From Chloranthus sessilifolius (Eukaryota > Streptophyta > Magnoliopsida > Chloranthales > Chloranthaceae): 64,000 bases of DNA. Numbering within the stretch: position 1 is the stretch's first letter; every line of letters begins with the position of its first letter. Made by a program: the position numbers and the translations under genes. The notes under the pieces were generated by a model that saw only the letters and a list, made by a program, of their open reading frames with translations, made no database searches and had not been told where the DNA came from. Of this stretch, positions 8,870-53,935 are shown piece after piece. The stretch is from contig CM037593.1 of the NCBI GenBank assembly GCA_021018995.1, positions 39,135,810 to 39,199,809 of the forward strand. The letters are read 5' to 3'.

Positions 8870-9380
8870 GAAGCCTGAGAGACTCTCGCGCACTACAGAC
8901 AACTTACTTTATTTGCTGTCATGAGATTCTTAGGCTGTTGTGAGGTTAAAAAGGGAGTCTGAGAGCATTTCACGTAGTTCGCATAGAAACATTCCATACC
9001 TATCGCGAGATTCATGTGTACTTGACAATCTCTCGCACGGTCCACATCGAGCTATTCAGTAGTTATCGCGAGATTCCAAGACTCTCGTGAGATTCAGAAG
9101 GTAACCTGGGAGACTCTCGCGCAATTCAACAGAAATACTTCATTTGCTGTCGCGATATTCTAAGTCTGTCGCGAGATTCAAAATGAACCTCAGAGCTTCT
9201 CACGCAATCCAAATAGAGACCTAGGAGCTACTCGCGCAATTCACATCAATTCATCTCACACAGTCGCGCGCTCCAAGGTCAACCTGGGTGATTGTTGTGC
9301 AATCCAGATTGAATCAACACCTTCGCTAGGTTCATTTCCAACCCTGCGACCAGATGTCCCAAAGCACGCCGAGCTTCGCG
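8870..9380 (+). repeat. Internal CGCG motif array upstream of the extra ORF of B
   Basis: About ten or more degenerate copies of TCTCGCGCAATTC / TCGCGAGATTC spaced roughly 30-35 bp apart, for example at 8884, 9001, 9063, 9113, 9166, 9227 and 9260. The same core lies in the U3 array of the B LTR (about 15630-15910). The region is not coding. Confidence 0.75.
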
Positions 9381-9383
9381 ATA

Positions 9384-9395
9384 AGTATTTTAACC
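9384..9395 (+). promoter_or_regulatory. TATA-like box for the extra ORF of B
   Basis: AGTATTTTAACC follows directly after the CGCG array and lies about 260 bp before the ATG at 9650. It is a weak TATA match, but the array, TATA-like box, leader, ATG order is the same in C and F where the boxes are stronger. Confidence 0.4.
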
Positions 9396-9649
9396 CCGCG
9401 CTTGGTCCCTTCCCCATTATTTTCTTCCTTCTTCCCTCTGTGAAACCCTAGCTTCTGGCACTCTTTCCCCTCTCTCCTCCAGCATCAACCCTATAGCTCA
9501 TCATTCACTCCACATATGTATAGAGTTGTTCCTAGCATCGCACACATCTATTGCCCTCTGCTCAGAGATCTCATGGTGCACTGTGCATCAAATCAAACCA
9601 AACCCTAAATCTTAGTCTCCGTTTCTCATACTAGAAGACAGAGTTAGAA

Positions 9650-12600
9650 ATGGCTCCAAAAATTTCACAAAAGAGAAAAGGGAAGGACAAGCACCCTGCA
9701 GAGACCACCCCTAAAATGGCCAAGACTTTAAAGTCCCCCAAGAAAGGAAAGGAAGTGGTCAAGGAGGTGGCGGTACCAACCACTAAGTTCTTTACTCCTT
9801 CTGAGCTCATGGAGTTAATTCCATTGGAGTCTGAAACAGCCTTTAATGTACCATTTTTTGAGAAAGAACCTCTCTCTACCCCTGCAGTACAGTTTATAAG
9901 CAAAGCGGGCCTGATGCCATTGATGAGAGGAATTCCAGCACTAGCCTACCCTAGGCAAGTGCAGCTGCTTTATCAGCACATCAAGGTCAAGAAGGACAAC
10001 GATGGACAAGTGTGCTTACTGGTGCTGATTGACGACTTTGATATGTTAGTGGGCTCCAAGGTGATTGCTGAAGTGTTGGGCATCCCAGCAGCATTCGACC
10101 CTAGCTGTGGATATGGCCCCCCTCTGAGTGCATCGATTGATACAATTGCACGGGCCCTAACTCGAGGATTAAAAGCCACAGGTGACTCGATCAGAAGGAG
10201 AGAATTAGAACCTAAAATCCTGTTCATTGACCAAGTCCTGCGAAAGAACATATATTGCTTAGGACATCAGCAGGAGAGGAGAACCCCCATTGCGGATGCT
10301 GTCTACTCCTTCCACCTGGGCCATGACTTCCATGCAGCATGGCTAATTTTTGAGGCAATGAAAGACACAGTGGAGAAGATAGGGACAAACAAGAAGCCTC
10401 ACACACTACCCTTTGCAAGAATCATTACCTTGTTGCTGCTAAAAGGGGGATACAAAATAGGAAGGACTGAAGAGACCACCACCCTTACCCCTACTACCTT
10501 TGCTAAGAGGCAATGGGGAATTAGCAGGAGTTTCAAGGGGGGCCAAAAAAAGAAGAAAGCTGAGGCTCAGGCACTACCCAAGCAAGCAGAAGAGGCAGCC
10601 GGATCAGGGTCTACCCCTACTACAAAGGAGGTGCCCCGAGAGCTCATCACTTCCATTGCTGCAGCATCACCTGTTACCCCTGCATCCACCATCCCTCTTG
10701 CATCCATCTCTCACCCCCTCTATTTCCATTCTCCATACCCACTCCCCCTTCACCTGTGCTTGGTCCATGGGAGGACTCCCCATCCCCTACCTTACCTCAG
10801 TACACAACCACAATTCCCCCCTCATCTCCACCTAAGCCTGCCAGCCCCCCACTCATCTCCTACAAAAAATGAAAGACCACTGAGACCATCCCAACCATCT
10901 CCCAGACACCACCCTCAATCCCTTCTATCCCCATTGACACACCACACCTTGACCAACACACCACCCCAGCCATACCTACTACATCCCCCCTCACAGACAT
11001 TGACTTAACCCTAAACACCACCATAGGATTCCAAGCCTTTATGGCTAGTTTCTTGGACACAATGCCTACCCACTACACCCCCCTCCCAGACTCCCCAACT
11101 ACCTCACAACATCACTCCCCTGAACCCCACTCTTCCCCTCCCTCCACTTTCCATCATGCACCTTCCTCACCTTTCCAACCAGTACCCTCTTCTTCACAAA
11201 CCTAACCTCCTAGCCTTGACACACTAACCCTCATCCTATCCCTTATCCAAGACATCCAAGCCCAGTTATCCACCAATACCCAAAAACAGGACCAGATGAG
11301 GACTGAACTCACCTCCATCCAATCCACCCTACACACCTTAACCACTCCACCCATCCCTCCACCATCCACTTTAACCCCCTTGGTCCTGTCCACTGACAAA
11401 GAAATCCAAACAGACTTCCCTCCTGACTTTCAACCCCCCCTTCCATCCCCATTACCTTTTACCCCCCATTTCCTTTCATACCTTTCACCATTCCCATTTT
11501 TCCCACACCACTACCCACTACTCCTATTGAGCCTACCCCATTCTCATTTCCCCCTATACCCTCCATCCCACCTCTTATACCCCCATCTCCAACTTACACA
11601 GACAAACAAACACAGACTGACCTAGAACCTATCCCCCTTCCCCCACAACTAGACTTAGCCCCTGTTACCCCCCCTTCTCCCCCCCAGGACCACTCAGAGC
11701 TCTCTCCTTCCACTTCGTATTTGCCCATCGCACCAAAACATCATTTTTACAGCCCTCCCTACCTCACCATCCTCCATCACATGAGGGATAATGCTTACCT
11801 TAGGAAGGATGTCCTGAGGGGCATGGCCAAGCTACGCCAATCCATTGAGACCCCCCCTGCTGGAGCAGATTGATGAAATGAAGGAGGCCCAAAGAAAGCA
11901 ACTTCTGGGCATCTCCTTGGGGTGGAAAAATATCCTGGAGGACTATCAGAAGACCAAAGCTATAGCTGAGTACAATGCACTGAATTTGGAGTTGGAGAAA
12001 GTAAATATTGCTGCTGAGAAGGCCCAGGCCAGACTGTTTGAAAAGAGGCTTAACAATGCCCAGGAGATCCACATAATCTAAAAGGAGATCCATGAGACTG
12101 ACTATCCAGATCGCCTCATTGGAATCCGCATTGGCTGCTGCCAGAAATGTTCCTCTGCAACCCACACCAATCTCTGTTCAAATGCCCATCACAGAGCCCA
12201 AAGCTACTCCATCTCCAGCTGCCCAGTCTAAGGAGGCACAACCTAAGACACAACAAGAAAAGGGCAAGGCCCCAGCTGCCCCCCCTCCCTCCCCTCCTAC
12301 CAAGCAGCCTCCACCTCCTAAGGCCTCTGCTGCACCTCCACAAGAACAAACTTATCCTAAGCAGAGGAAAGTCACTGCTAAGAGGTCTACTCCTAAAGCT
12401 ACTCCTTTAAAAATTGGCAAAGAACCAGCTGCCCAGTCTGAGGAGGCCCAATCTCATGCCCAGCCTGAGATCACAGCGAAAGGGAAATCCTCAGTGGTCC
12501 CCACTGAGGAAGCCAAAGGGAAAGGCAAAGGAAAATCTACTGCCACCCCCTGCTAAGCGCAAAGGTAAAGCCCCTCATGAACCCAAGGAACTAAAAGCTC

Positions 12601-12773: not shown

Positions 12774-13059
12774 CTAGCTTTTAGATTGTATATTAGGTTT
12801 TGTTTCTTGTAACTACGTTTGTACATATTTTACTACTTAATAGAATGTTTTTAGTTTTTGTCTCTTGCTATGATCTGTGTGCTTGTTTTCGTGGGAGATG
12901 CATTTAGGGAGGCTTTGCTTATTTGGAATAGTAACCCATGTAAATGGTCGATGTAGATGGTGGCTGAATAAATATGGATAATTATATGCCTCAGGGATTT
13001 AAAATGGTTTCTTTTTCACATTCATGGGCCATGTTAGGCTTGCTCGTGGAGATCCCCAA
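12774..13059 (+). other. Non-coding spacer in B
   Basis: Between the envelope-position ORF and the third module. AT-rich start resembling a 3' end of a transcript; no convincing ORF. Confidence 0.4.
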
Positions 13060-13125
13060 CTCAGCTGCGCGAGAATTGTGCAATCACTTCTTATTCTTCG
13101 CGAGGATCCCCTTAAATACCATGCC
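13060..13125 (+). promoter_or_regulatory. Possible third promoter module of B
   Basis: Two CGCG motifs (CAGCTGCGCGAGAATTG and TTCGCGAGGATCC) are followed at once by a TATA-like CCCCTTAAATACC (about 13109-13121). An ATG-initiated small ORF begins about 225 bp downstream at 13348. It repeats, in miniature, the array plus TATA layout seen at 8870-9395. Confidence 0.4.
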
Positions 13126-15629: not shown

Positions 15630-15910
15630 AAGAGCAATCTCGCGACAGCTATTTGTATTCCGCGATGACTAAAATGCCAATCCCGCGACTGCATGAACTT
15701 CAAGTCAATTCAACCCCGCGACGCCAATTCTACCACACGGAAGGATATGAAATCGTTTCTACCCAGCGAGGATCGGATTCTAAACTTCTCTCCACTTCTT
15801 CAAGGGCAATTTGGAAATCCCCAGCAATTAAGGCACGCACTCCAATGCTCCAATATCCGTGCACATGCCCTGAGGCATCCAAGGGATAGGATGGGCCGCA
15901 ATTACATTGA
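15630..15910 (+). repeat. CGCG motif array in U3 of B
   Basis: Motifs such as ATCTCGCGACAGC, TTCCGCGATGAC, ATCCCGCGACTGC, ACCCCGCGACGCC recur about every 25-35 bp. They match the core of the internal array at 8870-9380. Confidence 0.65.
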
Positions 15911-15952: not shown

Positions 15953-15963
15953 GCTATATAAGC
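15953..15963 (+). promoter_or_regulatory. TATA box of B 3' LTR
   Basis: GCTATATAAGC follows the U3 motif array by about 50 bp; identical core to the A LTR. Confidence 0.65.
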
Positions 15964-22941: not shown

Positions 22942-22950
22942 TTATATAGC
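22942..22950 (-). promoter_or_regulatory. TATA box of C 3' LTR
   Basis: Minus strand GCTATATAATG, downstream of the CGATAGG array; the right LTR has the same at 31817-31825. Confidence 0.6.
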
Positions 22951-23159: not shown

Positions 23160-23730
23160 TTTTGACAGGTTGAGGAAGCTTCTGACAGGTTCAAATGGCA
23201 CTTTTTGGTCCTTTCGCTAGGTTCTCAGATCTCTTCGATAGGTTTCGATAGGATGAGTCTTCTCATGATGCTTAAGCATTCTCAGCCCTTTGCCTGGAGC
23301 ATTCGACAGGTTGGGGAAGCTTTTCAACAGTTTGGAGGACCATTTCGATAGGTTCAGCTCTACATGCCATCATTCCGATAGGATTGTTCTCACTCCTATC
23401 AAAATGCTCAAGCACCCTTCGGTAGGTTTTATTCCAGCGTCTCCATCTCGATAGGTCCAGGCCACCATCCGACAGTTTTAGGAAACCATTCGATAGGTTT
23501 CCCTTACACCTCAGGCAGGCTTTCGATAGGATGGTTTCTTCCTTTCTTTCAGCTGCTCGATAGGTTCTTGGATCCTATCAAACTCTTCAATCCACACCAA
23601 TCCATCCTTTCTCTGCCTTTAGATCCTATCGAAACCTTTCCAACTGCACGAATTCCTCCAATTTTTACTCTCAGCTCCTATCAAAGTCTTCAGATAACCT
23701 CTCGATAGGATGTTTTCAGCCTATTTTCAC
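23160..23730 (-). repeat. CGATAGG motif array in C 3' LTR
   Basis: Many copies of TTCGATAGGTT / TTCGACAGGTT and the reverse CCTATCGAAA, about one per 20-40 bp. This replaces the CGCGAG motif found in A, B and F at the same U3 position. The internal array of C (27285-27560) uses the same motif. Confidence 0.75.
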
Positions 23731-25610: not shown

Positions 25611-25780
25611 ATTAAACAGTGTCCTCAATATTTTACACTATGAAATCAGTAGATAGACATGGTAAGAAGATATCTACATAGTAAAAAAAAAATACATGAA
25701 AACAAAATTATATTAATATGTCAAATATATACATGAGACAAGTGAAAAAGAAACTAAAATAATAAACTGCCACATCTATT

Positions 25781-26980
25781 TACAGGCATCATCTGGCCAA
25801 CCATAGAGGTCAACTAGGTTTTTCAGCTCATCCTTAGATAAAGGAGCTTTTCCTTTAGATTTTGATTTTTGTTGCAGGTTCTTTGGTGCCTCCTTAGACT
25901 AGGCAGCTGGTTGTTTTCCTTTTGGATCAACCGCAACAACAGAATCTGAATCTGAATCAGAAGGAAAAAGGGCATTGGGGTCCAATCCTAGAGCTGCAAC
26001 AGTCTTCTTTCTTTCTTCCCTAGAGAGTAAGGTGAAAGAGGTGTCAGGTTGGGTTGGGGGCTTGGTGGGGTGAGCTTCTTTAGACTAGGCAGTAGGCTTC
26101 TTTCCTTTCTTGATAGAAACAACAGATGGAGCAGATCTTTTGGCAGTAACGTTCTTCTTAGTGGAAGCCCTTTTAGATTTTGGAGGGGTAGGTTGAGTAG
26201 GGGGAGGTTCCTGGGCTGGAGGAGGGTGAATATCCATAGGTGGGGTAGGAGGAGGTTGAATTGTAGAAGGGGGACAGGTTTGAGTGAAGGGAGGCTCAGT
26301 AGGAGATGTTGTAGCTAGAGGGGTAGGTTGAAAGGGCTGAGAGCTCAAGGAAGCAACCTTTTTCTCCAATAGGTCAATTTGTTTTGCTGCATAGAGCAGG
26401 TTGGCATCAGAGAGTTCCTTGGTGGCCTTTAGTATCTCTTGAGCATTGGCTAATTTTTTCTTGAGAAGCTCATAATTCTTCTCATATATGGAAATTAGAC
26501 TCTTAGCAGCAGCCAACTATTTTGCTGACTCATAACGAGTCAGGATTTCAATCCACCCTAGAGAGATATCTCAGAGCTTGATTCTGTGCTCCAATTCCAT
26601 GTTGGCAATCCTCTCCTCATAAGGGGCTTCAAGGGAGGCTCGGAGTGCAGCCATACCTCTCAGGACATCCCTTTGGATGTAAGGGTCGTCCCTCATGGCA
26701 TACAGCAGGGTGAGGTAAGGGGGGATGTACATGTTCTGTCAAGGGTGGGCAAAGGGGCTTCCGCAGCTAGAGCAGCCCTTTCTAAGGGTGTTTCTATCTC
26801 AGGCTCTTGAATTTCGATAGCTTTTGCCTTCTTGGCCTTAGGAGCCTTCTTAGGCATCTCCTCAGAGAGCTTCCTCTTAACAGGTGGTTTGGAAGCTGGC
26901 TTCGATTTCTTGGAGGATTTGGGGGTAGAAGCAGCTGGTCTCCGGAGTAGGTTTGCTAGGGTTTCCTCAGGCTCAACCAT
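25781..26980 (-). pseudogene. Shortened envelope-position ORF of element C
   Basis: Starts MVEPEETLANLLRRP at 26980 and runs through a Lys-rich segment with nuclear-signal-like clusters (PPVKRKLSEEMPKKAPKAKK) to about 26693. The middle (26680-26520) is broken. The C-terminal part at 26516-26085 is a coiled coil (YEKNYELLKKKLANAQEILK) followed by a Pro-rich tract and a basic end, then acidic residues; a final frame ends near 25781. The globular domain present in B (residues 46-270) is missing. Confidence 0.6.
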
Positions 26981-27284: not shown

Positions 27285-27560
27285 AATGACCTATCGACAG
27301 GTATATAAGGGGTGAAATACGATTTCGATAGGATGAATTGGATGGTTTCGATAGGTTCATGCGTCCTGTCGAAAGCTTAGCAGACAAAGCTTTCAAAAGG
27401 GATGATTTGATAGGATCCCGATAGGTGGAACCACCCTTCCGATAGGCCTCAGTGCCTATCGAAACCATCAAATATCCTGTCGAAATCACCATGTGACCTA
27501 ACGAAAGGTGAACTTGACCTATCAAAAGCTCCCAAAACCCAAATAAGGCTGCATTTCTGG
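27285..27560 (-). repeat. Internal CGATAGG motif array of C
   Basis: Motifs CCTATCGAAA, TTTCGATAGGATG, CCTGTCGAAA and ACCTATCGACAGG recur about every 20-40 bp. A 148-residue minus-strand frame that crosses it is not considered a gene. The array lies between the post-pol junction and the envelope-position ORF. Confidence 0.75.
27299..27309 (-). promoter_or_regulatory. TATA box upstream of the C envelope-position ORF
   Basis: Minus strand CCCCTTATATACC lies at the downstream edge of the array, about 320 bp before the ATG at 26980. This is a stronger TATA match than the B equivalent. Confidence 0.6.
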
Positions 27561-30711: not shown

Positions 30712-32455
30712 TGTTGGCGATCTGTCTTACCTTCAAAAAGGGGTTTAAATTCACTCATTTTAAGGCAGATCACACACACAGACCTGCAAGTATTCAAGGC
30801 CTGTTGTAGCAAGTTTTAAAAGAGTAAGGGAATGTCCACAGGGAGGTGAGTTCTAAATATGGTAAATCTCCATATCTGAAAAGAGATCTGACACCCTACA
30901 TAGTAAAAGAAATGGGAGAGGTTTTAAAGGGTTGTAACTTAAGCTAAACTACAAATAAAATGCAAACTAACTGAGATCGAGTCCAGAGATCTAGATCTTG
31001 CAAGTGGAAGGGTTTAAAAATAGAAAATGGAGAAGAGCAGCTTGGAGATTGGTCTAACTACAATCAGATTGAGCTGATCATGTTACAGGGGTTCAAAGCA
31101 CACAAATCCCTCAGCTGGCTGCAAGCACAACTGCAGGGTAGAAGACTCCACTCTAAACCAAAGGTTTAACTGATCTTAAGGCTATGGTCTGTCCACTTCA
31201 ATGGTCACAAGCCATCCTATAGACTTCATCCAATCCAAAGGTTTATGGTAGGAGAATCCAATTGAAACCAGAGATTAGACTAATCTTAAGGCTATGATCT
31301 GTCCACTTCAATGGTCACAGATCATCCTAGGGAATTCCTCCAAACCAAAGGTTTCAACCACAATATTAAAACCACTACGGATGGTGTAATTTCTAGGTCA
31401 CAGACACAAGAAATTGCAGGGATATCAGACCTAGGGAGATCAGGTGGTATTCAAGAGGTCTACCAGTTAAGTGGGTGAGCTAATCAACAAACTCCTCTAC
31501 ACAAATCTGATCTAGCACCAAATGAAACCAAAGGAACTATAGATCTAATTAAAATAGTAAAAACAACATTTACATTGCAATAAAACTCACTCTATAATAA
31601 AATGCTCTCAGATCTGTAGTCTGTGCATCAATTAACCCACAACAACACTCTCATCCTTACCCAATTACAGATCTAACCTCTCTCCTCACCGCTCCTAGGG
31701 AATTAGCCAACCATAGTTGAGCTAAAAGAGGGAAAATGGAATTTCGCTACAAGCTTTGATCTCTAGAATTCGATCCAAATCTCGATCCCTCCCCCAAATT
31801 ACAGTTGGAGATCTCATTATATAGCTTTTCCCTCTCGTTTCTCTCGCCAATATTCCCTTCTAGAAGGCCCTCAAAGTTCGTTAGAGATCTGTTAGAGCAC
31901 GTGGGGTTGGTTAGGGGAATCTTCAGGATCATCTGCTGGTCACCCAAGTGCCTCGGGTTGCGTACAACAGGTCACTAAGTTGCAGTGTGCGAAGAGCCTA
32001 CTTTCTGAGAAGTTCTTCACACGAATTCGACAGGATAGGATAGGTTCCCCTTACACCTCAGGCAGGCTTTCGATAGGATGGTTTCTTCATTTATTTCAGC
32101 TGCTCGATAGGTTCTTGGATCCTATCGAACTCCTCAATCCACACGAATCCATCCTTTCTCTGCCTTCAGATCCTATCGAAACCTTTCCAACTGCACGAAT
32201 TCCTCCATTTTTTTCTCTCAGCTCCTATCAAAGTCTTCAGATAACCTCTCAATAGGATGTTTTTACCCTATTTTTACTTCCTTCGCCTTGCCCTGCTGTT
32301 GCCACGTGCCCCAAGGGCCCAATGGTGTGCAGCCCTCTTATGTGCCATTGTTGGGTCTGCACTGTGCTGAGAGATAGACTTCTTTGTGCGGCATTCTTGG
32401 GTGGTTTTCTGCATTTTTCCTATCTTTTATTGCTATCTACAAAACAGACTCAACA
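30712..32455 (-). repeat. 5' LTR of element C (right copy)
   Basis: About 1.74 kb, plus-strand ends TGTTGGCGATCTG and ACTCAACA. Highly similar to 21838-23908 except for a loss of about 330 bp at about 32030-32045, where the array jumps from TTCGACAGGAT to GATAGGTTCCCC. TATA box at 31817-31825; 38-bp motif at 31180-31217 and 31290-31327. Confidence 0.85.
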
Positions 32456-33090: not shown

Positions 33091-33450
33091 TGCAGTTAGA
33101 TCGTGTACCTCGCTTAGGGCACGCAATGAAATTGTGCACCAAAAGAATGTCGCTTAATCCCTATTACACTCCCTTCTTTGAGCGCGTAAACAAATCGTCG
33201 CCCGCTCAAAAATAGCCCAACGCCTTGATTGCACACCACAAACCAGAGAGTAACCATATCATACATCAAAATTGCGGCGCGTAAATCCCAAAGGTCACTC
33301 GCACAGTGACCAGGTGTTGCCTCAATCCCGTGTCTTGGAACACGTATGTAATTTGATTACACAACATCTTACAGACGCATAATGATTCTCTAAACCCCGC
33401 AAACGTGCGAGGCTATGCCGACGCTGAATTTAGTTATGTGCCTAGTGTTA
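33091..33450 (-). repeat. Motif array of D antisense module 2
   Basis: Motifs such as GAGCGCGTAAAC, GGCGCGTAAATCC, GGGCACGCAATG. A patch at about 33290-33335 (AAATCCCAAAGGTCACTCGC) is homologous to 35565-35600 in module 1, so the two promoters share ancestry. Confidence 0.55.
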
Positions 33451-35369: not shown

Positions 35370-37330
35370 CAAACTCAATTGCACGCCTGGATCCCGGTGT
35401 GCAATTAGGTCACGCGCCAAGAAGTTTGCGCGAAAACCAAATCATGCACACTGACATGAGTGCATAATAAAACTTTTGCACGCCCCATCAGTGCGATGCT
35501 CTAGTCACGCGCCCAATATAGGACGCTCAATCACATTACCCATATTAGGAAACACGCAAAATCCGAAGGGTCACCCGCATAGTGACCTGGCGACGCTCCA
35601 ATTACATGATATCACCTAGCTGCTTAATTAGATTACACGCTAGTACTCACACACGAAATCCAGATTGACGCCCGAACACTGCCACTTTACCAACCCGGCG
35701 ACCTTTCGATCACGCGCAATGCTAGAAGCGCACAAATACAATACGCACACCAACCCAAATGCTTAATTGACACCTTAAGCCTTAAATCACGTGCTCCCAA
35801 ACGGACGCACAAATCAATTCAACACCTTGAATCAGGCATGTAATCCTCAACTACAGCGTACACCACTAATAAAATAAACATACCCCGTCGCAATATGATG
35901 TACACTTAATCCCCTTAACCCATCACGGACCAACCAGAGACGAGTATATTCCCCCAAAAGCTCCATCGCAGCCAAATTACTCCCTTTGATAACTTGCATG
36001 TCCCATTACAATCAGAATCCTTCCCTCTCTTCCGTCCCATCGCGTTACCTCCCTAGCTATCCAAAAAAAAAAAAAAGAGAGAAAGAGAGAGATGCTGATC
36101 ATCTTCATGTCCCATCGCAGCCAGACATATCAGCATAAATCAACCAGACCCTATCGCGACGATGAATCTTACCACATCACCAAGACCAAAGGAAAGTCCC
36201 GCCGGGATCCCAAAACCTCATTATTGCCCCATCGCGACAGTCAAGGAGTCCCCTTAACCCATCACGGACCAACCAGAGACGAGTATATTCTCCCAAAAGC
36301 TCCATCGCAGCAAAATTACTCCCTTTGATAACTTGCACGTCCCATTACAATCAAAATCCTTCCCTCTCTTCCGTCCCATCGCGTTACCTCCCTAGCTATC
36401 CAAAAAAAAAAAAAGAGAGAGAAAGAGAGAGATGCTGATCATCTTCATGTCCCATCGCAGCCAGACATATTAGCATAAATTGACCATACCCTATCACAAT
36501 GATGAATCTTACCACATCACCAAGACCAAAGGAAAGTCCCGTCGGGATCCCAAAACCTCATTATTGCCCCATCGCGACAGTCAAGGAGTCACTAGACCAA
36601 CCTTTCATCGCACACTCATAAACATGTCCTGTCATGATACAACCACAACGTGATCTCATATAACCCAAGAACTACCAAAGAAAGAAACACCATCGTTGTC
36701 TTATCATGAAATTGAAACAACTAAGGAATCGGCGACGTCGCGCATGTCCCATCGTAATGCCACCACAACCCAAGTGTCTTGAAAACCCGTTCTCTCACGA
36801 CACTGTCACCCAAAACACTCGAACACACCCCATCATGATACACAATCGAGAAGGGAAGGCTCAACCATGTCCCGTCACGTCAGTAGGGAGCCTAATCCCC
36901 GGAGCCCCATTACATAACCACACTGTGGGAAGGCTCAACCATGTCCCATCGCGTAAGTAGGGAGCCTAATCCCTGACGCTTCACCACACAACAGTCACCA
37001 GACGCCATTACAACAGAAACATAAGGACGGAGAAACCTCTTTGATATCTTGCCACATCCCGTCTCAGCACAGACATCTCACCAGAGTCCCCCTATGTCCC
37101 ACCGGGCCTACAACCAGCGGGACTCACCTCACCACACAACCATAAGGGGAGAATCACTATGTCTCACCATGAATTTCATCTTCCCAAGACCCTTCCTCAC
37201 ATTGATGACCATCAAGTTCCATTGAAGCAGAAGTGAAGAAAAGGGAGGGAACCCTCTAATGTCCCATCGCGACATCACTACAACAGCCGATCAAGTCCCA
37301 TCGTAAGCAATGCAAGGGCCTTTCACTCAG
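35370..37330 (-). repeat. Motif arrays upstream of D module 1 (CACGCGCC then CCCATCGCG)
   Basis: Two adjoining arrays on the plus strand: 35370-35880 rich in CACGCGCC / GCACGCC, and 35880-37330 with tens of degenerate copies of TCCCATCGCGAC (for example 36020, 36110, 36150, 36228, 36375, 36950, 37260). Frames across it are not genes. Confidence 0.65.
35911..36590. repeat. Tandem duplication of about 339 bp
   Basis: Copy 1 starts CCCCTTAACCCATCACGG at 35911, copy 2 with the same bases at 36250; copy 2 ends CAAGGAGTC at 36590. Only a handful of differences by eye, so it is a recent event in an otherwise old element. Each copy contains a poly-A/GAGA tract (36061-36090, 36401-36430). Confidence 0.85.
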
Positions 37331-38843: not shown

Positions 38844-38853
38844 CTATTTATAG
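38844..38853 (-). promoter_or_regulatory. TATA box of solo LTR G
   Basis: Minus strand AACTATAAATAGATG. Confidence 0.55.
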
Positions 38854-39204
38854 TTTTCCCCAAGCCAGCTCAGATGTGTATCAACCAATCAGAATTGGAT
38901 AGATCTATATCAACCAATAGGAGTCGAGCACAAGGATCCAGATCTATTTTGGCCAATCAGAACTGCTTGTTCTGGTTCAGCCAATCAGGTGATAGAAGCA
39001 TCAATTCTGTTATGTAATTCAAAAATCTGTTTGAGCTTCTAGAAGTTCCCGCCAAGTAATTTCATCTTTGGGTGTTCACATGGGGTGGAATATGCCTTTT
39101 GTTCGTGCTCAGAATCTTTCGGAATGTCCCTGGGCTTTTAAATGCATTGGGGCGCGTGCAGAGATTACTGAATTGCCCTTGTAGATGCTGAGAATCTTCA
39201 GGAT

Positions 39205-39415
39205 ATCATTTCGCACAGTTTGGAGAACTTTTTCAATCTGGACTTCTGAAGCTCTTTTCGCACAGATTGGAGACCTTTTCGAAAAGAACTATAACTTCTG
39301 GAGATCTATTCGCAAAGATTGGAGACCTTTTTGCAGAGCTTGGGGATCTTTTCGCAAAGATTGGGGACCTTTACGAATAGCATTCTGTAGTGCATTCTTC
39401 TTTTCGAATAGCTCC
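39205..39415 (-). repeat. TTCGCAAAGATTGGAGACC array in G
   Basis: Plus-strand copies: TTCGCACAGTTTGGAGA (39210), TTCGCACAGATTGGAGACC (39258), TTCGCAAAGATTGGAGACC (39310), TTCGCAAAGATTGGGGACC (39351). It occupies the same U3 site as the CGCGAG and CGATAGG arrays. Confidence 0.75.
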
Positions 39416-40162: not shown

Positions 40163-40173
40163 TCTATTTATAG
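40163..40173 (-). promoter_or_regulatory. TATA box of E LTR
   Basis: Minus strand CCTATAAATAGAGAGG, about 900 bp from the LTR start. Confidence 0.6.
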
Positions 40174-41074
40174 GAAAATGAGAGGTTAGGAGGGTGTTTA
40201 GAGGCTAAGTAGGTTAAGGAATTGGGTAATCTAGCCATCTAAGGTTTTCAAGGGTTTTTGGAGCCTTGAAAAGTGTGAAAGCTAGCTCCAATGGTGGATG
40301 ATAGGTTAGAGCTTTAAGTCACTTAAAGGGTTGCAAATAGAATAGGAATGGGTGCGACAGAATAAGCAAAACAGACACAAGAGATCAAGATGGCCAACAA
40401 GTCAAACCCTAATCTTGAAATTCGAGCAGAAAACCCAAGGTTACTATAGCTAAGCCTGGCACAACTAATAGATGCAACAAGCTTAGGTACAGTAAAATAG
40501 TGCCCAACAGTGGGTTGGGAAGTTCACTGCCAGCAAGGGGTCCCACATAAGGCAAGCGCAAGTATTAGTTGTGCCAAGTTCATAGGGATCCTTGCGAAGC
40601 TTCTCGCATGTTTCCTAATGAACCACTCGACAGGTTCTCACGTTGTTCAATGTAGGCCTCACGAGGTTCAGTTGATGCCTATTTTCATGCCCAAACTTTG
40701 AATCGCTGTAACTTTTGATGTATAGCTCAGATTGGGGTGATTCTTGGCTTGTTGGAAAGCTGAAGACTTATACCTTTTAATGGTATAAGATTCAATTATA
40801 GCATGAGATCTCAACTAGTCCTGGTGCACCACTCTTTGATCATTGCTCGGGAATGTCTATGTATGGGTTCGAAATGGATTTTACAGGTTGGGATTGGTTT
40901 CTAAAGGCTCGGGGAGGTTTTTAAGGGATCAAGGGTGATTCCTAAGAGTTTGGGATGACTCCTAAGGTTTTTGGAAGGTTCCTAAGGGTTTGATACATGC
41001 CATCGAAAGGTCGAACGTGCGCCTCTGTCAAAGTGTGTTTCGATCGGGCCTCGGGCCAAATTTGGTTGTCTACA

Positions 41075-42079: not shown

Positions 42080-42154
42080 CCTGGCGCATGTATTACTTGC
42101 GCCAGGCCAACTGGGGGCCAAAATACACTTGGCGCATGTAATACATGCGCCAAG
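42080..42154 (+). promoter_or_regulatory. Two palindromes upstream of antisense gene 1 of E
   Basis: Palindrome 1 (42080-42106): arms CCTGGCGCA and TGCGCCAGG. Palindrome 2 (42128-42154): perfect 13-bp arms CTTGGCGCATGTA and TACATGCGCCAAG with a 1-base centre. A TATA-like GATTTTAAAGAG follows at 42168. Related motifs lie upstream of antisense gene 2 (45868-45894) and in the U3 of the E LTR (40553-40577). Confidence 0.7.
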
Positions 42155-42194: not shown

Positions 42195-45100
42195 AAGGGG
42201 TTTATTTTTCAAAAACATTTCTTCCCCCTCTCCAAACCGAAAAGAGACCTCCTCCTAGGGTTCCTTTGGATTTATCCCTAGCGTGGTTCATTGCCAGTGT
42301 TCTCTCATGTTGATCAAACACCCGCTCTACTCCAGATCTAGAACTTATATTTCTTTGAAGGTAACCACCTTAAAACCCATTTTTTACTTGATTTTTCTTG
42401 TAATGTGATCATGATCTTTGCTTTCTTAGATGATAAATGGTTTATTTCTCTTGTATGCATGCTTATTGATGATGAGTTTGATGTTATTACATGAATGATG
42501 CCCTATATTTTTTGTTGTTTTATGGATTTTATTAGGACATAAATCTATTTTTTTGTTTTTATGCTTGTAAATAAAGTAAAGGGATTTTTTTTGTTTTTGT
42601 TTTTATTTTTGCAAAATAAAGTAAAGGGATTTTTTTTTTGGTTTTGTTTTTTTTTTTTATAAATAAAGTAGAGGGATTTTTTTTGTTTTTGTTTTTGACT
42701 TTATAAACAAAGTAAAGGGATTTTTTTTTTTGCTTTTGTTTTTGATTTTATAAACAAAGTGAAGGATTTATTTATTTATTTTTGTTGTTTTTGCAAATAA
42801 AGGAAAGGGATTTTTTTGGGTTTTGTTTTTTATTTGCATAAACAAAGTAAAGAGATTTTTTTTTTGGTTTTATTTTTTATTTTTATAAACAAAAAGAAAA
42901 GATTTTTTGTTGGTTTTATTAACATAAAGAAAAGATAGGCATACTTACCTCCCTTGGGCCTGCAGCACAATGGTTCTTTATCGTTGATCAACCTTGACAT
43001 GGTTACCTGTATTTGCCCCAGAATGTCAAGCGAGGAGGAATACGTGTAGGAGGAGGAATGGGAAGAGGGGCCGGAAGTGACCTACGGTCCCCGAGGAGAA
43101 CGATTCTTTACAGTACAATGCCCTGTCGGTCCATGGTTTGAAATGCAAGGAGAGGTTGCCCATGCTGGTCTGCTACATCAACAACACTTCCATATTTCTA
43201 GTTTCGATATTGTGGGCAAGGTAAGGGGATAGGTTCAATTATTCTTCCTCGCGCAACCTTGCTATATTTCCATGATCTGATGCCTCTTTTTTCCTTTGGT
43301 GCAGGACTTGCCTTAGATTGTATTTCGAGGGGGCTGGTTGAACTTTCAGCAGTTCTATCGGTACATCCCACTGGTCATGAAGTTCTTGCTCGAACAGGCC
43401 GGGTTTGAAGAGTTCCTATCATGCCCCACCATGCGGGCTGATTCCGCCTATTTGAGAGCTCTTATGGAGTGATTCCGTCCGGAGACCATGTCCTTTCACA
43501 TGGCCATGGCCGAGATGACCCTAACTCCTATAGATTGAACCATGATTACGGAGATCTAGATAGGGGGGGTTCTGGTGGCCAACCTTGCAGTGTCGGCCCG
43601 AGATAAGATCATTAGATTGATAGGGGCCTATCCCCCTTCCACAAGTTTGCATGGCACCAAGGTTAAAATGTCTTGATTGTCTGACCTCTTCGAGCTACAT
43701 GAGTTGTTAGATCTAGGGCAGCCAGACCTGGAAGTTTTCATTAAGCCCGAATGCACGATTATGTTGGCCAGCATCTTGCTCCTCATATTGCTGGGCAAGA
43801 CCCTCTTCACCAATCCCAGCGGTGGACGAGTTTCCTTGGCCTTGCTTAGCCTGATGGATAATTGGAATGGCATCCATAGATATGACTGGGGTGGGGCTGG
43901 CTACGCCGTGTTGATGTCCAGCCTAGACCGAGTCTCCATTGGGAATGCAAAGTCTGTCGTCAGCTTTTGGCCTGCTCTGGAGGTAATCTCTTAAATCTTT
44001 TGCTTTTATCAGCTTCTTTGGATAGTCGTTGTCCGCTTTTGACTTATCTTTTACGCACTACTCTTGTCAGGCGTGGGGGTATTTTCACTTTCAGCTAGGC
44101 CGCCCCCTTCTTTACTCTGAAATATACACTTGTCCTCTTCTGAGTAATTGGAATAAGCACCACCGCAAGGATGTTAGCATGAAGCAGCTGGAGATGGGCT
44201 TGAGGTCCCTATTCGATCTATTGATCCCGAAGCAAGTAAGGCCATTTTTCCTCTTTTTCATTTCAGAGTTGCTCCTTTATTGTGTTGCATGTTTGATTGA
44301 TTGGACACTCCTTGATTTGGGCAGGTTATATATGACCCCTACATTTTTTCTCCTTATTGGGATCAAGCCGCTGTAGGTCTATCTCACTTCTTCATCAACC
44401 GCTGCATCATTTTTCTATGGGGCTTCGGCCAGGGCCTACTACTCGGGAGAGTGAGTAGTCCATCAGTATCAGGACTATCCTGTCATGCCCTCGGCTCCTC
44501 CTGTAGATGTCACAAAACCCGTGGGTAGTATAGAGGAGCTCACTGTCAGATTCCTTCAAAACGGGGTCCCTATCAATGCCTTCCTGATGCTCGAAGACTA
44601 TCGGATGTGGTATGAGTCTCTGCCTGACCAGTCTCTTCTCCCACGCTTCGTTCCTGGTGCAAACTTCCTAGATATTGGTGGCCCACACTCTTGGGTAGTT
44701 CCTCTTTCTCTTTCAGATTGGTTCCTTGTAGCTTTGACTGACTTGTGAACTTTACTAATGGAAACCCTATTTCTCTTCATAGTTTTAGCAGGGAGGTGAC
44801 TCTGACGATAATGATGGAGCGGCGACGGGTACTGCTGCGGCCTCAGGAGTTGGCCCTTCATCTGGGGCTGGTCCTTCAGGCCCCTCCGGTATAGGTGCTT
44901 CGAGTAGCTTGGGTGCTAAGGTCCAGGGGACCTTTAGGCGCCTTGATGATGCTTTTCTGTCGGGCTTGTGCACGACTGTAGAGGAGTGGGCTCGTATCTC
45001 TGCTGAAGCGATCTGGGTTCCCCCTCCCGAGGTAATTGTTGGAGTAATTCTTATCTATCTCCCCCATTTATTTTTTAGAAATGCTGATGTTTATGCCTTG

Positions 45101-45381
45101 TTGCTGATATCTTTCTCTCTTTGAATGCAAGACTATGAGTCTGCAGTGAATCAGGCCTAATATTACTGCAACATTGTCGGTCTCAGGGATGTGGAAGTGG
45201 TGAGTATCATTCTGACCGCTCTTTGATTATTGCCTTGCCATTTATCTTTCAACTGGTCTGATTGGTTGCTTACTTGCAGACTGCTCGTGACAAGGAGTCG
45301 CGCTCCTTGCTCAGCCGACTTTCTCTGGCATGGACCTGGGTAGGAGACGTTCGGACCTATCAAAGCTCTTCTCGTCAGTGA
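42195..45381 (+). pseudogene. Antisense gene 1 of E: plant mobile domain ORF with introns
   Basis: Lies on the strand opposite to the E pol. Proposed exons by splice signals and continuous sense: 5' leader to 42360 (AAG|GTAACC), 43022-43220 (ATG 43023; CAAG|GTAAGG), 43305-43982, 44071-44235, 44325-44694, 44792-45031, about 45131-45200, about 45280-45381. The protein reads FRPETMSFHMAMAEMTLTP, RDKIIRLIGAYPPSTSLHG, NWNGIHRYDWGGAGYAVL, WGYFHFQLGRPLL, the pattern of plant mobile domain (PMD) proteins known both as host genes (MAIN/MAIL) and in Tat elements. It has at least six in-frame stops (for example 43047, 43315), most fitting C-to-T or G-to-A. Introns survive here because they are antisense to genomic RNA. 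Confidence 0.65.
42540..42940. repeat. T-rich tandem repeat in intron 1 of antisense gene 1
   Basis: About eight degenerate units of roughly 45-55 bp, each with AAACAAAGTAAAGGGATTTT followed by a T/G-rich run. It lies wholly in the proposed first intron (42361-43021). Confidence 0.8.
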
Positions 45382-45867
45382 AAGAAATCAAAGGGCGCCA
45401 ACAAGGATTAGGCTTAGCTTTTGCCTTTTGAATTTTAGACATTCTAGGATACATTTTGGGATTTTTGAACAATTTGTAATGGATAATATGGCACTTTGGA
45501 TGGTTTTTTCAGCTTCTTCTTTTGGAATGTTAGTGCTTTTTCTCTTATATATATATATATATTTTTTTTTTTTTATTACATGCTCTATTTCCCTTGTATT
45601 ATATCTGATTGTCTGCAGGAAGATTTGACAATTGCTTGTTTTTAAGATAAAATGGCCCCTGAGGCCGTCAAACTTTTTCCACGCTTTGGCCATTGTTGGT
45701 GTGGATTTTTTTCTGCAGAAAGAATTGTTTTACAGTTAGGTGCCATAGAAATTTTGAGTTTGTTATGCGATCAAAGCATGAAACATAGGTGAACTAGCTA
45801 AGGGGGCCAAAAAAGACAAAACTTCCCCCTCAAAAACCCCCACCAGGCCAATTTCTGGCAAAAATGC
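45382..45867. other. Spacer between the two antisense genes of E
   Basis: Likely 3' untranslated region of antisense gene 1, with a TA microsatellite at 45549-45562 and a T run. No ORF supported. Confidence 0.4.
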
Positions 45868-45930
45868 ACTGCCGCATGTATTACATGCGCTAGGTGTTTC
45901 CTTGGGGCAGTGGGCCCTTTTAAGCCCGAG
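45868..45930 (+). promoter_or_regulatory. Palindrome and TATA-like box upstream of antisense gene 2
   Basis: CTGCCGCATGTATTACATG at 45869 continues GCGCTAGG, an imperfect copy of the palindrome at 42128. CTTTTAAGCCCGAG at 45917 parallels TTTTAAAGAGCCCGAG at 42170, so the two promoters are related. Confidence 0.55.
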
Positions 45931-49812: not shown

Positions 49813-49821
49813 CTTATATAC
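49813..49821 (-). promoter_or_regulatory. TATA box of F 3' LTR
   Basis: Minus strand AAGTATATAAGCTG; same in the right LTR at 57793-57801. Confidence 0.6.
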
Positions 49822-49989: not shown

Positions 49990-50540
49990 AAGTGGAGAGC
50001 CCGTGCTTCGCGGGGTTAGTGTATGCTTTTAGCTCATTTGTGCAGCTGCTTTGCCTTCACGGAGTTGCCTTTGGCTGGTGGGACGTGCTTGCTCGTGCAG
50101 TGAATCTTTAGTTCATCATGCAGTTCCTTTGCGTTGCAATGCTATCGTAGAGATTATCTGGAGTGCCTAGACTTCTTGCGCAGTAGAGCTTCAGAAGCTC
50201 TTTCTCGCTGAGTACTCACGCAGTTATACTCTTGTGCTCACGTAGTCAATGGTAAGGCTTCAGCGTGTGTGTGATCTTTGCGAGGAGAATTCTAGGCTTC
50301 TCTCTCATCCAGGGCTACGTAAGAACTATGCGAGGTGATATTCTGTTCAGTGTACATATGGACTCGCTGGGTTCTTCACGCGGTTGCTTTGAGGATTGAT
50401 CTCCTCGCGAGGGAAAATTCTGAGAGTTTTAACCTGTGAGATCTTCACGAGGTCATTTTAGCTGTCCTCCTGACTACACGAGGGCCTCTTCCACTGCATC
50501 TTTAGCTTCACGAGGAAGCTCCTCAACTCTACGAGGTCTA
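49990..50540 (-). repeat. CGCG/CACGAGG motif array in F 3' LTR
   Basis: Motifs GCTTCGCGGGG, CTCGCGAGGG, CTTCACGAGGTC, CTACGAGGTC, TTTGCGAGGAG. Counterpart in the right LTR at about 57985-58505. Confidence 0.65.
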
Positions 50541-50873
50541 TCTTTTACTACTCTGGTGCATTGCACTTGTTGTTGTCACAGTCTCTTCCTTTCTCAGCTA
50601 ACTTCATTCATCTGCTAGACTTTGGTCAATGATGATCAGCAATAATGAGTCACCATGGTGAGCACTACCAAGGTGTTCCATCAGGCTTTGTCTCAGCTGT
50701 CAACTTTGAGTGCATTCTCTCTCTCTTTTGGGCCAAAAAGTAAGGAGTTTGTATTAAGCTGCACATTTTATTGCTAACTACAAAACACACTTAAAAAATG
50801 GTTATTAGTTTGCTTCAAGGTCCAACGAAGGCTAAGTTAAGAGGTGAAAAGTGGTACTTTTCAGTGAATAACA

Positions 50874-50890
50874 CACCCCCAAACCTAATC
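50874..50890 (-). other. 3' polypurine tract of F
   Basis: Minus strand TTAGGTTTGGGGGTG directly before the LTR start TGTTATTCAC; the cleanest PPT in the window. Confidence 0.75.
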
Positions 50891-52534: not shown

Positions 52535-52551
52535 GCCACACCCCCAAACCT
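52535..52551 (-). other. Internal polypurine-tract-like site of F
   Basis: Minus strand AGGTTTGGGGGTGTGGC, nearly identical to the true PPT at 50874-50890. Confidence 0.55.
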
Positions 52552-52839
52552 ATGAGGAACAGTGTCCTCACTGATTCAAAGGACAATGGTTGTGCAGCAG
52601 TGATCAAACACAAATGAACTACCAAAAACTACAAGAGAGAAAAGCAAAACACATAACAAATAAAAAAAGAATCAAACAAACATAAAAATAAAAAGTGACA
52701 GATTGTCGGGAAAAGGAATTTTATTATAGATACAAAAGCAAACAGATTACAAAAAGATAGGAAATTATAAACCTCAGAACAATCTAAGCAAAACATCCAG
52801 TCAAACAAAATGGTTCTTCCTCCTAGCGCAGGGATATCC

Positions 52840-53205
52840 TCAACCTTCTATGGAAGAGGAAATGCAAGCCGGGAGGAGGGGGAAGACGACGAACAAGGAG
52901 ATGGGTGTGGAGCAGGTGGTGGGGGGTCTGAAGAAGATGGGGGGACAGATGCAGGTGGTGTAGTTTTTTACTTCTTCTTTTTCAGGGCTCATAGCAGGTG
53001 GGTGCTCTCTGGCCCTCTTCTTTGGGGCAGATTTCTTCTTTTCTTTCAAAATTGTAGGGTCAGCACCAGGTGAGGGCACCTCAGAGGTCTCCAATGTTGA
53101 GACCTCTGCAATCCTCATGGATTTCCTAGAGGCCATAGGGCTGCCACTAGGAGTAAGGTCTAGCATAGCTACCAATGTATCGATGAATTTGGAACTCTTG
53201 GCCAT
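52840..53205 (-). pseudogene. Shortened envelope-position ORF of F
   Basis: Starts MAKSSKFIDTLVAMLDL, then a Lys-rich segment (LKEKKKSAPKKRAREHPP) and, in a shifted frame, a Pro/Ser tail like that of the small B ORF. The globular domain of the B ORF is missing. It lies about 375 bp downstream of the TATA box at 53576. Confidence 0.5.
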
Positions 53206-53575
53206 GGGTTCTCAAATTTTAAAAATTAGGGTTCACAAATCTTGGAAAATGTAGAATGCAATGAGTAAACTCAGAAACACCAAATTTTAGCCCTACTACT
53301 CTCTGAAACTCAAATCAATCATAACACAGAGAGGGAATGGAGATCATACCATTTGAGAGTTAGGGTTCCACCTCAACGTGTTCACAGTGGCTCAAATCCC
53401 CTCAAACCTTGTTCAAAGAGACCAGAGGGTGCTAGGGAACAAAATGCTAAGAGGAAAATGCTTAAGGTGGAGTGGCTTAAGGGGTAGAGAAGAAAGGAAG
53501 AACTGGGAGCTCTGGTTGAGTGTGCCGAAAACTAGGGCAGACAGATAAAATAAATAAAATGAGGGGTTTCGCTGA

Positions 53576-53585
53576 GTTTATAGAG
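53576..53585 (-). promoter_or_regulatory. TATA box upstream of the F envelope-position ORF
   Basis: Minus strand GCTCTATAAACTC at the downstream edge of the internal CGCG array. Confidence 0.6.
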
Positions 53586-53935
53586 CAAATCCTGCGGTTT
53601 GCGTAGTTGGCAGCAGGTCCTCACAGAGTAGATTTCTTGCGTAGTTGGTTTTGAAGTCCGCAAAATGTTCTATCGCGCAGTAGAGTATCTGACACCCAGT
53701 GAATTTTATGAAGTTGGCAATAGTGGCTTAGGTGCACGAGACCTTATTTTACTTCAGAACTGTACCGCGTGTGGTGCTCGTGCAGAACAACACAACACAC
53801 ACTTCATGCACAAATTGGGCTCGCGGAGTAAAAGGTAGCTCCGCGAGGCACATTTTTAGTCAATGCTCTGTTGTTCTAGCACGCGAGGAAGCCAAAGGAT
53901 GGCTCGCACAACATATTTAAGCATCTCAACTTAGC
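53586..53935 (-). repeat. Internal CGCG motif array of F
   Basis: Motifs TTTGCGTAGTTGG, TTGCGTAGTTGG, TATCGCGCAGTAG, CTCGCGGAGTA, CTCCGCGAGGC, GCACGCGAGGAAG. Similar to the F LTR array. Confidence 0.65.

Follow-up and report, generated by a model that had tools for sequence, protein, structure and literature searches.

Retrotransposons and word arrays in the window

The window, by which we mean the whole 64,000-nucleotide stretch of Chloranthus sessilifolius DNA analysed here, holds LTR retrotransposons A to G, which we take, with the first reading, to belong to the Athila and Tat lineages, in a genome rich in Athila-like retrotransposons. In B the pol domain RVT_1 (6121–6579) lies before rve (7339–7896), which is the Ty3 order and unlike that of Ty1/copia elements, in which integrase precedes reverse transcriptase. 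A patch of short repeated words stands before the main promoter of the LTR, and a second patch of like words stands before the extra gene of the element; the features concerned are as follows.

2250..2790, minus strand: A LTR U3 array of CTCGCGAG / CTGCGCGAG words (strict cluster 2453–2733; TATATAA box 2058–2067)
8870..9386, plus strand: B internal array of TCGCGAGATTC and CTCGCGC words (strict cluster 8888–9234)
9386..9393, plus strand: B core-promoter-like box, TATTTTAA
9650..11008, plus strand: B extra ORF, 452 aa, with a lysine-rich N-terminus and a PF20167-like region below the Pfam cut-off
13040..13115, plus strand: small third word group of B (two CGCGAG) before a small ORF, found by eye and below the strict-cluster threshold
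15636..15770, plus strand: short U3 array of the B 3' LTR (CTCGCGAC, CCCGCGAC), a weak match to the B body (TATA box 15954–15961)
23214..23709, minus strand: C left (3') LTR U3 array of CCTATCGA, by motif scan and strict cluster (TATA box 22941–22950)
25760..26980, minus strand: C extra-ORF remnants (start 26980, frame broken)
27285..27545, minus strand: C internal array of CCTATCGA, by U3-learned motif, 8-mers and strict cluster (TATATA 27302–27307)
32027..32256, minus strand: C right (5') LTR U3 array, partly deleted, by strict-cluster count
33095..33430, minus strand: D internal array 1 (TATATATA at 33081–33089), no LTR match found
35375..35890, minus strand: D internal array 2 (TATATAA 35357–35368), no LTR match found
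39212..39403, minus strand: G LTR U3 array of the TTCGAA class, to which element e9 also belongs (TATAAATA at 38844–38853)
40457..40576, no strand: two decayed 23-bp palindromes (18/23 and 19/23) in the E 3' LTR U3 (TATA box 40164–40173)
42082..42152, no strand: two perfect 23-bp palindromes upstream of E antisense gene 1 (TTTTAAAG at 42170)
43020..45420, plus strand: broken region of E antisense gene 1 with plant mobile domain (PMD) remnants
45870..45892, no strand: third internal E palindrome (21/23), upstream of antisense gene 2
50010..50530, minus strand: F left LTR U3 array (TATA box 49813–49820)
52843..53205, minus strand: remnant of the F extra ORF (121 aa, counted from the ATG)
53585..53930, minus strand: F internal array, below the strict-cluster threshold (TATAAA 53577–53582)
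58000..58500, minus strand: F right LTR U3 array, which does not rank the F body array

A motif learned from the U3 of C alone has its top non-LTR peak at 27217–27516 (19 sites per 300 bp compared with a window mean of 1.17), the non-LTR 300-bp window with most 8-mers in common with this U3 is 27251–27550 (56 8-mers; mean 11.9, sd 5.7), and CCTATCGA with at most one mismatch occurs 12 times in the internal array and 17 times in the left-LTR U3. The left-LTR U3 of F likewise has its best non-LTR window at 53641–53940 (30 8-mers; mean 11.2, sd 4.8), which is absent from the five best non-LTR windows of the right-LTR U3, and the F internal array is as close to the A U3 (similarity 0.108) as to its own U3s (0.093 and 0.058). 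The best non-LTR window for the A U3 is the B internal array (8941–9240; 34 8-mers, mean 9.8, sd 4.5). B's own 3' LTR U3 is short with a single CGCGAG and ranks 8971–9270 fourth (20 8-mers; mean 6.7, sd 3.4), behind three windows of which two abut LTRs, and a motif learned from it did not find the B internal array. The proposal that the LTR and body of one element use the same motif is borne out by C and the left LTR of F, and not by B's own U3 or the right LTR of F.

The Tat elements D and E had been said to share this plan. E goes further in that a 23-bp palindrome is common to its LTRs and to the predicted promoters of its antisense genes. The pattern used within the window was built from E's internal copies, and the 5' LTR has three copies at 20–21/23. 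The two D internal arrays resemble each other (0.104 compared with 0.051 and 0.011 against the sole LTR-like candidate in view), and no match to the candidate U3 was found; the D LTR is not delimitable, the candidate U3 may be a tandem-repeat region, and the LTR may have been cut by E. The PMD remnants of E (E=9.4e-4 and 0.14) are both below cut-off, and the DOWN motif of PMD mutants (CATGCAGTTT, MORC1 promoter; as given in the portion of PMC9899485 available to us) was rejected as too loose a link to this gene.

The TATA-like box lies about 264 bp (B), 327 bp (C) and 377 bp (F) before the ATG of the envelope-position ORF, in agreement with the 260–375 bp given in the first reading. The accompanying claim of an array plus TATA box is good for C, F and D, where the box is canonical, and less so for B and E, which have TATTTTAA and TTTTAA instead; a block (TATTTTAACCCC / TATTTGAACCCC) at the B box was found again in elements e1, A3 and e7, and neither e8 nor e12 showed a TATA-like box beyond its array. 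CpG observed/expected ratios are 1.08 (B), 0.83 (C) and 0.92 (F) in the internal arrays compared with 0.37 for the window. In most comparisons the array has also kept its CpGs better than pol has, with 22/39 array CpGs kept in both copies compared with 3/11 in pol for A3/B, 25/41 compared with 3/12 for B/e7, and 8/25, 11/27 and 11/23 compared with 0/9, 0/11 and 0/10 for the e1 pairs, while A3/e7 arrays (25/43) do no better than pol (5/8). Helical phasing of sites was weak and was set aside (p=0.03 before correction for the C arrays taken together, 0.02 for the B internal array, and at least 0.16 in six other tests).

Motif classes in further elements

The match between LTR and body goes by motif class, better than by single copy, and is also found in elements beyond the first reading. 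For each of four classes (CGCG, CCTATCGA, CTCGAG and TTCGAA), motifs learned from U3s alone single out the pre-ORF segments that belong to it; the Athila-type elements compared provide these four classes and no more. CGCG-class U3 motifs have 14–24 sites in the A3, B and e7 pre-ORF segments compared with 0–4 in C and e9, the C U3 motif has 20 in its own pre-ORF segment compared with at most 11 elsewhere, the e8, e10 and e11 U3 motifs have 15–17 in e8 compared with at most 6, and the e9 and G U3 motifs have 21–23 in e9 compared with at most 9. The motif scores were judged against an order-1 background and against 300 further windows, and the similarities of eye-picked segments against dinucleotide shuffles.

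The proposed check, that similarity within elements should exceed that between them, came out in favour at the level of labels, with own pairing equalled or beaten by 83 of 40,320 label permutations for U3-learned motifs and by 34 and 33 of 40,320 for shared k-mers. For individual copies it succeeded in part, as by 8-mers the element's own U3 came first only for C, F and e9 and second for e8, and, of 14, it came fifth for e7, sixth for A3, ninth for B and thirteenth for e1. The best internal window by own U3 is the pre-ORF segment in e7, e8 and e9 among six pol-anchored elements (the others being e1, A3 and B). In a test of shared 8-mers between 900-bp segments and random windows the z values were low, most likely owing to a spread widened by unmarked LTRs.

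Strict clusters, for which the class words were chosen after being seen, number 26 in 264 kb, with 19 in U3s, six just upstream of extra ORFs and one unassigned. Six copies on other chromosomes were selected for the likeness of their pol; five of them have exactly two clusters, both of the same class, the first beyond pol and the second in the U3, and the sixth has no cluster. The classes are largely mutually exclusive across 21 LTR starts, and the match held in stretches picked by place or by pol similarity and in the E 5' LTR. We regard the original observation as real in substance and partly confirmed, also outside the window, with exceptions remaining (own U3 is not the best match for B, e1, A3 and e7, F is weak, and D is without a match). 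The wording that every internal extra ORF follows the layout of its own LTR is too strong, because B and F are weak, D is unmatched and the TATA boxes vary.

The extra ORF and comparable systems

The extra ORF is under purifying selection (dN/dS 0.25, 0.16 and 0.20) and resembles PF20167 weakly (E=1.8e-3 in B, 1e-5 in A3 and 2e-4 in e1, all below the Pfam cut-off), while five e8/e9 pieces had no match to a PF20167 or PF03078-type domain, the kind expected after pol in the Athila lineage. Beyond this weak likeness no recognisable DNA-binding fold was found, and a profile search of PDB gave a single chance-level match (E=1.3) and no relative. No relatives of the B ORF were found at E≤0.001 among 7999 scored candidates, and no viral contigs were matched by two queries. 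Among genome contigs, two in two bacterial assemblies do match, being 99.7% identical over 9 kb and carrying an internal region with an antisense ORF; no LTR pair was found in them, nor a second copy of the stretch in the assembly, and they are presumably plant contaminants. By eye, the N-termini of the extra ORFs are lysine-rich.

The original prediction knew of no description of matched internal arrays, and here it was mistaken, as the available sections of Bousios et al. 2010 (PMC2829016) describe the same plan in Sireviruses (Ty1/copia). These have CpG-rich, element-specific repeated motifs in the LTR upstream of the TATA box, with the same motif clustered before env in env-bearing elements (77 of 79 linker copies in nine elements), for which an internal promoter was suggested. 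Our elements are alike in both respects, with the exceptions of B, e1, A3, D and L028 in the second. The Sirevirus motif is a palindrome with a CGG-CCG core (also lacking in the Sirevirus Tnd-1), whereas this core is absent from the words seen here (CTCGCGAG, CTCGAG, CTTTTCGAAAAG/TTCGAA and CCTATCGA). What is new is the plan in Ty3-type elements, the coexistence of several words within a single genome, and an extra protein that is rich in lysine, resembles PF20167 and is under measured purifying selection.

Other systems share parts of this arrangement. According to the passages available of PMC5735166 and PMC10398659, the words bound by VANC are arrayed in noncoding DNA, and related VANDAL families have different ones; we likewise find short noncoding words, differing between related families of one genome, beside an element-encoded protein (here the extra ORF); VANDALs are Mu-like DNA transposons, and for them binding was demonstrated by ChIP and EMSA. 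The Retand/Tat antisense ORFs and maize Grande gene23 are additional genes that lie between pol and the 3' LTR, their products are nuclear or may bind DNA, and family-specific tandem repeats occur nearby; the Grande gene has its own promoter (Gomez-Orte 2013 as told in PMC7264820); a match of promoter words to the LTR, present here, is not reported in the parts of PMC11963269 and PMC7264820 available to us. The sunflower Athila 14 ORF(+) shares the partial PF20167 similarity, has a nuclear localization signal and is predicted to be nuclear, and the accessible text of PMC11728184 reports no promoter array. The function of the Athila/Tat extra ORFs is still described as an open question (PMC7264820 and PMC11728184, as far as the available text goes).

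Explanations for the matched arrays

From these sequences we infer promoter activity for the internal array and a single factor serving both arrays, and the pattern suggests that families differ in their word while each runs both promoters through one common recognition signal. The explanation we favour as probable is that each Athila-type family has a two-use cis-regulatory module in which a short CpG-centred word is arrayed immediately before a core promoter. From the LTR U3 this module would serve the genomic RNA, and from a second site some 250–900 bp beyond pol (or beyond gag in C and F, which lack pol) it would serve a separate extra-ORF mRNA. Both arrays would be read by one sequence-specific DNA-binding factor, and a change in a family's word would therefore occur in both places. 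The interpretation in the original prediction is partly supported, except that conversion, one of its proposed causes, is unlikely in the form of long tracts because the U3 and pre-ORF arrays (5 U3s compared with 6 pre-ORF segments) have no more in common than matches of 12–56 bp.

These short matches also bear on whether the body arrays are functionless copies of LTR arrays that recombination, template switching or conversion has moved. LTR elements often undergo template switching and the word is the same in both places, but the bases flanking the shared words of C are near chance identity and elements of four classes all have the array between pol and the ATG, which leaves such copying very improbable. 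That CpG-rich stretches simply look alike by composition, with the pairing picked by eye, seems less credible still; the first reading and the compared segments were indeed eye-picked and the E pattern came from internal copies, but the scores were set against dinucleotide shuffles, the order-1 background and the 300 windows, and the largely exclusive classes, the stretches fetched by place or by pol similarity and the E 5' LTR all speak against it.

It is quite possible, if short of probable, that host transcription factors read the arrays and that no reader encoded by the element takes part, with families having recruited different ones and the extra gene needing the expression window of the genomic RNA so that sites were built twice. 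The array data fit this equally well, and in its favour are the extra ORF's lack of a recognisable DNA-binding fold or PDB relative (weak PF20167 likeness apart) and the Sirevirus motifs, which mainly resemble stress-factor sites among plant cis-elements (PMC2829016, sections available); a fixed set of host factors, however, does not by itself predict four words among relatives with similar ORFs in one nucleus. Rather unlikely, in our view, is that the arrays are no promoter elements but the places where a VANC-like anti-silencing protein encoded by the element docks, lying before TATA boxes because silencing is lifted where transcription starts. The family-specific noncoding arrays bound by VANC (PMC5735166 and PMC10398659, in part), the CpG-centred words with their better-kept CpGs in most pairs, and the LTR methylation drop in one of the sunflower Athila clades, which differ in methylation (PMC12844716, available portion), would all suit such docking.

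Within the favoured two-use module, a reader encoded by the element, most simply the lysine-rich extra-ORF protein acting like VANC in VANDAL, is a possibility we hold at somewhat below that of the host factors; otherwise the reader would be a family-specific host factor. More tentatively again, the Athila envelope-position gene may encode a sequence-specific nuclear regulator that recognises the word of its family both in the LTR and in the promoter of its own gene, forming an autoregulatory loop of activation or anti-silencing in which word and reader co-diverge and relatives in one nucleus are insulated, by analogy with VANC/VANDAL. If so, LTR retrotransposons would have independently evolved self-recognition of the VANDAL kind, and if the extra protein does not bind its own word, one element would still run two co-regulated promoters. 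Sense extra ORFs are usually likened to envelopes, and the matched family-specific words allow a direct binding test of this alternative role. Sireviruses seem to have arrived separately at two co-regulated promoters.

Nested elements and matched arrays in the window

The nested LTR elements in the 64 kb, with boundaries taken from self-comparison and reading of the sequence, are A (-), B (+), C (-), F (-), G, D (+) and E (-); the lineage names are those of the original prediction, Athila for A, B, C and F and Tat for D and E, and G is an LTR with no body in view. The gene order in B, RVT_1 reverse transcriptase and then rve integrase, is that of Ty3. Searches with the B proteins (tblastn, E ≤ 0.01) matched gag and protease in C, with no match for reverse transcriptase or integrase, and gag as the sole match in F. 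Features noted are:

2980-2993: B's 5' LTR is cut at the start of A's LTR, as if A had inserted there, so that B's sole U3 in view is that of its 3' LTR
13040-13115: a third small CGCGAG group in B with a TTAAATA-like box, ahead of a second small ORF (13348 onward) and absent from the original prediction
23915-30716 (-): C, and
50872-56165 (-): F, both without a reverse transcriptase or integrase match and still retaining array, TATA box and extra-ORF start
35910-36590: a 340-bp tandem pair (96% matches) near D's end with CCCATCGCGA words, either a tandem region or an LTR
37975-39690: G, splitting E's 3' LTR, the flanking parts of which correspond to a single stretch of E's 5' LTR (in L014, a further stretch)

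The internal arrays of B, C, F and D, clusters of short words upstream of the extra (envelope-position or antisense) ORFs, have a CpG observed/expected ratio of 0.83–1.26 compared with 0.37 window-wide. The cleanest LTR–body match is found in C, where the motif derived from the U3 alone (AaCCTaTCGA) has its top non-LTR peak in the internal array (19 sites in 300 bp, against a mean of 1.17). When ranked by shared 8-mers, C's internal array was placed first by C's U3 (56; mean 11.9, sd 5.7) and F's by the left-LTR U3 of F (30; mean 11.2, sd 4.8), while B's was placed first by A's U3 (34; mean 9.8, sd 4.5) and only fourth by its own (20; mean 6.7, sd 3.4). Among the 120 permutations of five U3s against five internal arrays, the true one ranked first (dinucleotide-corrected 6-mer profiles), with the segments picked by eye and C dominating the result. 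The original prediction, that every extra ORF is preceded by a motif array and TATA box copying the layout of its own LTR, is therefore borne out in substance by C, the left LTR of F, and E (see below), but not for every ORF, given the fourth place of B, the U3 of F's right LTR which did not list F's internal array by shared 8-mers, and the arrays of D which matched no LTR in view.

Matching by class in the flanks and on other chromosomes

We fetched 200 kb of flanks and located eleven 3' ends in the resulting 264 kb by the conserved pre-LTR stretch and the end of pol (global coordinates are C10 positions minus 39,035,809; window coordinates are global minus 100,000). The best window by own U3 lay just past pol in three of the six pol-anchored elements (e1, A3, B, e7, e8 and e9): at 370 bp in e7 (own U3 28; e2's U3 35 and A3's 30), 300 bp in e8 (own 67; same-class e11 54 and e10 44; others ≤27) and 242 bp in e9 (own 48; others ≤33), with e10 left out because its assumed body ran into e11's LTR. 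The pre-ORF window came second by own U3 in A3 and B, and that of e1 was found by other U3s (A3's, 33) and not by its own. Beyond the window, matched arrays recur with two additional words, neither seen in a body in the original prediction: CTCGAG in both U3 and past pol in e8, and CTATTCGAAA in the U3 and CTTTTCGAAAAG past pol in e9.

De novo motif discovery on U3s, followed by scoring of pre-ORF segments, also found a match by class, with B's U3 motif as the exception. EM motifs were obtained from the 1000-bp U3s of 12 LTRs, and their sites were tallied in the 900-bp pre-ORF segments of eight elements; these were cut at the pol end, except that in C and F the segment was the one preceding the ATG. 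The CGCG-class motifs (e1, e2, A3, F and e7) had 14–24 sites in A3, B and e7, against 9–12 in F, 7–10 in e1, 5–9 in e8 and 0–4 in C and e9; C's motif had 20 sites in C (≤11 in the other segments), those of e8, e10 and e11 had 15–17 in e8 (≤6), and those of e9 and G had 21–23 in e9 (≤9). The own pairing was reached by 83 of 40,320 label permutations, and by 34 and 33 when shared 8-mers and 7-mers were used. Own U3s ranked, of 14 (k = 8), first for C, F and e9, second for e8, fifth for e7, sixth for A3, ninth for B and thirteenth for e1, which indicates that the match is by class more than by single copy.

A search for LTR starts returned 32 rows, from which 11 mirror hits of the near-palindromic start were dropped. 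The 21 kept carry mainly one word class each; in addition, CTCGAG-type words number 6 in the C-class LTR at 81603, and a few more LTRs have 1–4 second-class words. Strict clusters (at least 5 core words, gaps ≤130 bp, words chosen after the motifs had been seen) numbered 26 in the 264 kb, at first 18 in U3s, five past the end of pol, one at C's internal array and two unassigned. As one of the last two matches e11's LTR at 87% identity over 2.2 kb, the tally becomes 19 U3, 6 pre-ORF and 1 unassigned. This remaining cluster (C10 39065635-39066020, in the L010 region; global 29826-30211) has seven CTCGAG-class words at neither an assigned LTR nor a pol end. The strict-cluster threshold is not reached by the arrays of F, the U3 of B or the pre-ORF segments of either A3 or e1.

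Six copies on C3, C4, C5, C8, C12 and C14 were taken from pol searches in which 150 of 60,364 and 40 of 10,124 candidates were scored. In all three copies of the e9 family and two of the three of the B family there are exactly two clusters (at least 4 words), both of the same class: one ~260–790 bp past pol and the other in the U3. In the third B-family copy (L028), seven CGCG words are scattered without forming a cluster. We note that two 9-kb Ty3-type contigs, 99.7% identical, are found in bacterial assemblies (L001 and L002; Solirubrobacter and Geminicoccus), presumably as plant contamination.

Constraint, proposed upkeep of the words and published parallels

As they stand in the assembly, the extra ORFs of B, A3 and e1 remain open across 330 codons, with dN/dS of 0.25 (B/A3), 0.16 (B/e1) and 0.20 (A3/e1) at dS of 0.43, 0.97 and 0.96, respectively. 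Their matches to PF20167 are weak and below cut-off (E = 1.8e-3 for B, 1e-5 for A3 and 2e-4 for e1); five pieces from e8 and e9 had no PF20167 match and by eye resemble B's extra ORF. CpGs kept in both copies were compared between the array and the last 1.15 kb of pol, with small counts and pairs that are not independent: 22/39 vs 3/11 (A3/B), 25/41 vs 3/12 (B/e7), and 8/25, 11/27 and 11/23 vs 0/9, 0/11 and 0/10 in pairs with e1, with no contrast in A3/e7 (25/43 vs 5/8). GpC showed the reverse trend (array 0.47 and 0.43 vs pol 0.71 and 0.74 for A3/B and B/e7).

Most arrays have a core-promoter-like box downstream of them: C carries TATATA and F TATAAA, B and e1 share TATTTTAACCCC, A3 and e7 share TATTTGAACCCC, and e9 has TATTTAAACCC. 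No such box was seen past the arrays of e8 and e12. We infer that transcripts would start at the internal boxes. The words might match because one array was copied from the other, or because a common reader of U3 and pre-ORF words keeps both matched. Shared tracts reach at most 56 bp (five U3s by six pre-ORF segments), and the sequence flanking C's shared words is about as similar as expected by chance; we therefore favour a common reader that keeps the words matched, rather than copying. Three of the four words (CTCGCGAG, CTCGAG and CTTTTCGAAAAG) are palindromes of similar build and C's CCTATCGAAA is half symmetrical, which would suit one reader family diverging with its targets; a set of host factors could also read the words.

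The original prediction knew of no precedent for matched internal arrays, but one exists in Sireviruses, which are Ty1/copia elements, unlike the Ty3-type elements here. Bousios et al. 2010 (PMC2829016) describe element-specific repeated motifs in the LTRs of 13 Sireviruses; in the nine that have env the linker holds additional copies, of which 77 of 79 lie ahead of env. They describe the plan as absent from classic copia elements and take it as support for an internal promoter; the architecture is thus known in Ty1/copia. Other components are also in print: VANC words and proteins (PMC5735166), Grande gene23 with its own promoter and nuclear product (told in PMC7264820), Retand with repeats that differ by family and antisense proteins that may bind DNA (PMC11963269), a PF20167-like extra protein predicted to be nuclear in sunflower Athila (PMC11728184), and methylation classes of Athila clades (PMC12844716). 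The extra protein here may be nuclear rather than an envelope. Searches of the open-licence literature listed no title or abstract on LTR-matched internal arrays in Athila- or Tat-type elements, and we regard as new the matched-array plan in Ty3-type elements, the coexistence of several word classes within a single genome, and the connection of arrays to a conserved extra protein.

The palindromes of element E

In E, a 23-bp palindrome pattern derived from the internal copies has perfect fits at 42082 and 42130 and a 21/23 fit at 45870, ahead of two antisense gene regions. The next-best fits in the window (19 and 18) are both in the U3 of E's 3' LTR, followed by 16, and ten mononucleotide shuffles reach 15–17. 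E's 5' LTR, which aligns to the 3' LTR as two pieces with 85% and 89% identity, has fits of 20, 20 and 21. Outside E's internal copies and LTRs, no fit in the 264 kb is as high as 18. The first antisense gene region (43020-45420) contains remnants of the plant mobile domain, a domain of the host silencing proteins MAIN and MAIL1, at E = 9.4e-4 and 0.14, below cut-off. In both putative internal promoters of E (42170 and 45914), TTTTAA and then GCCCGAG occur shortly after the palindrome.
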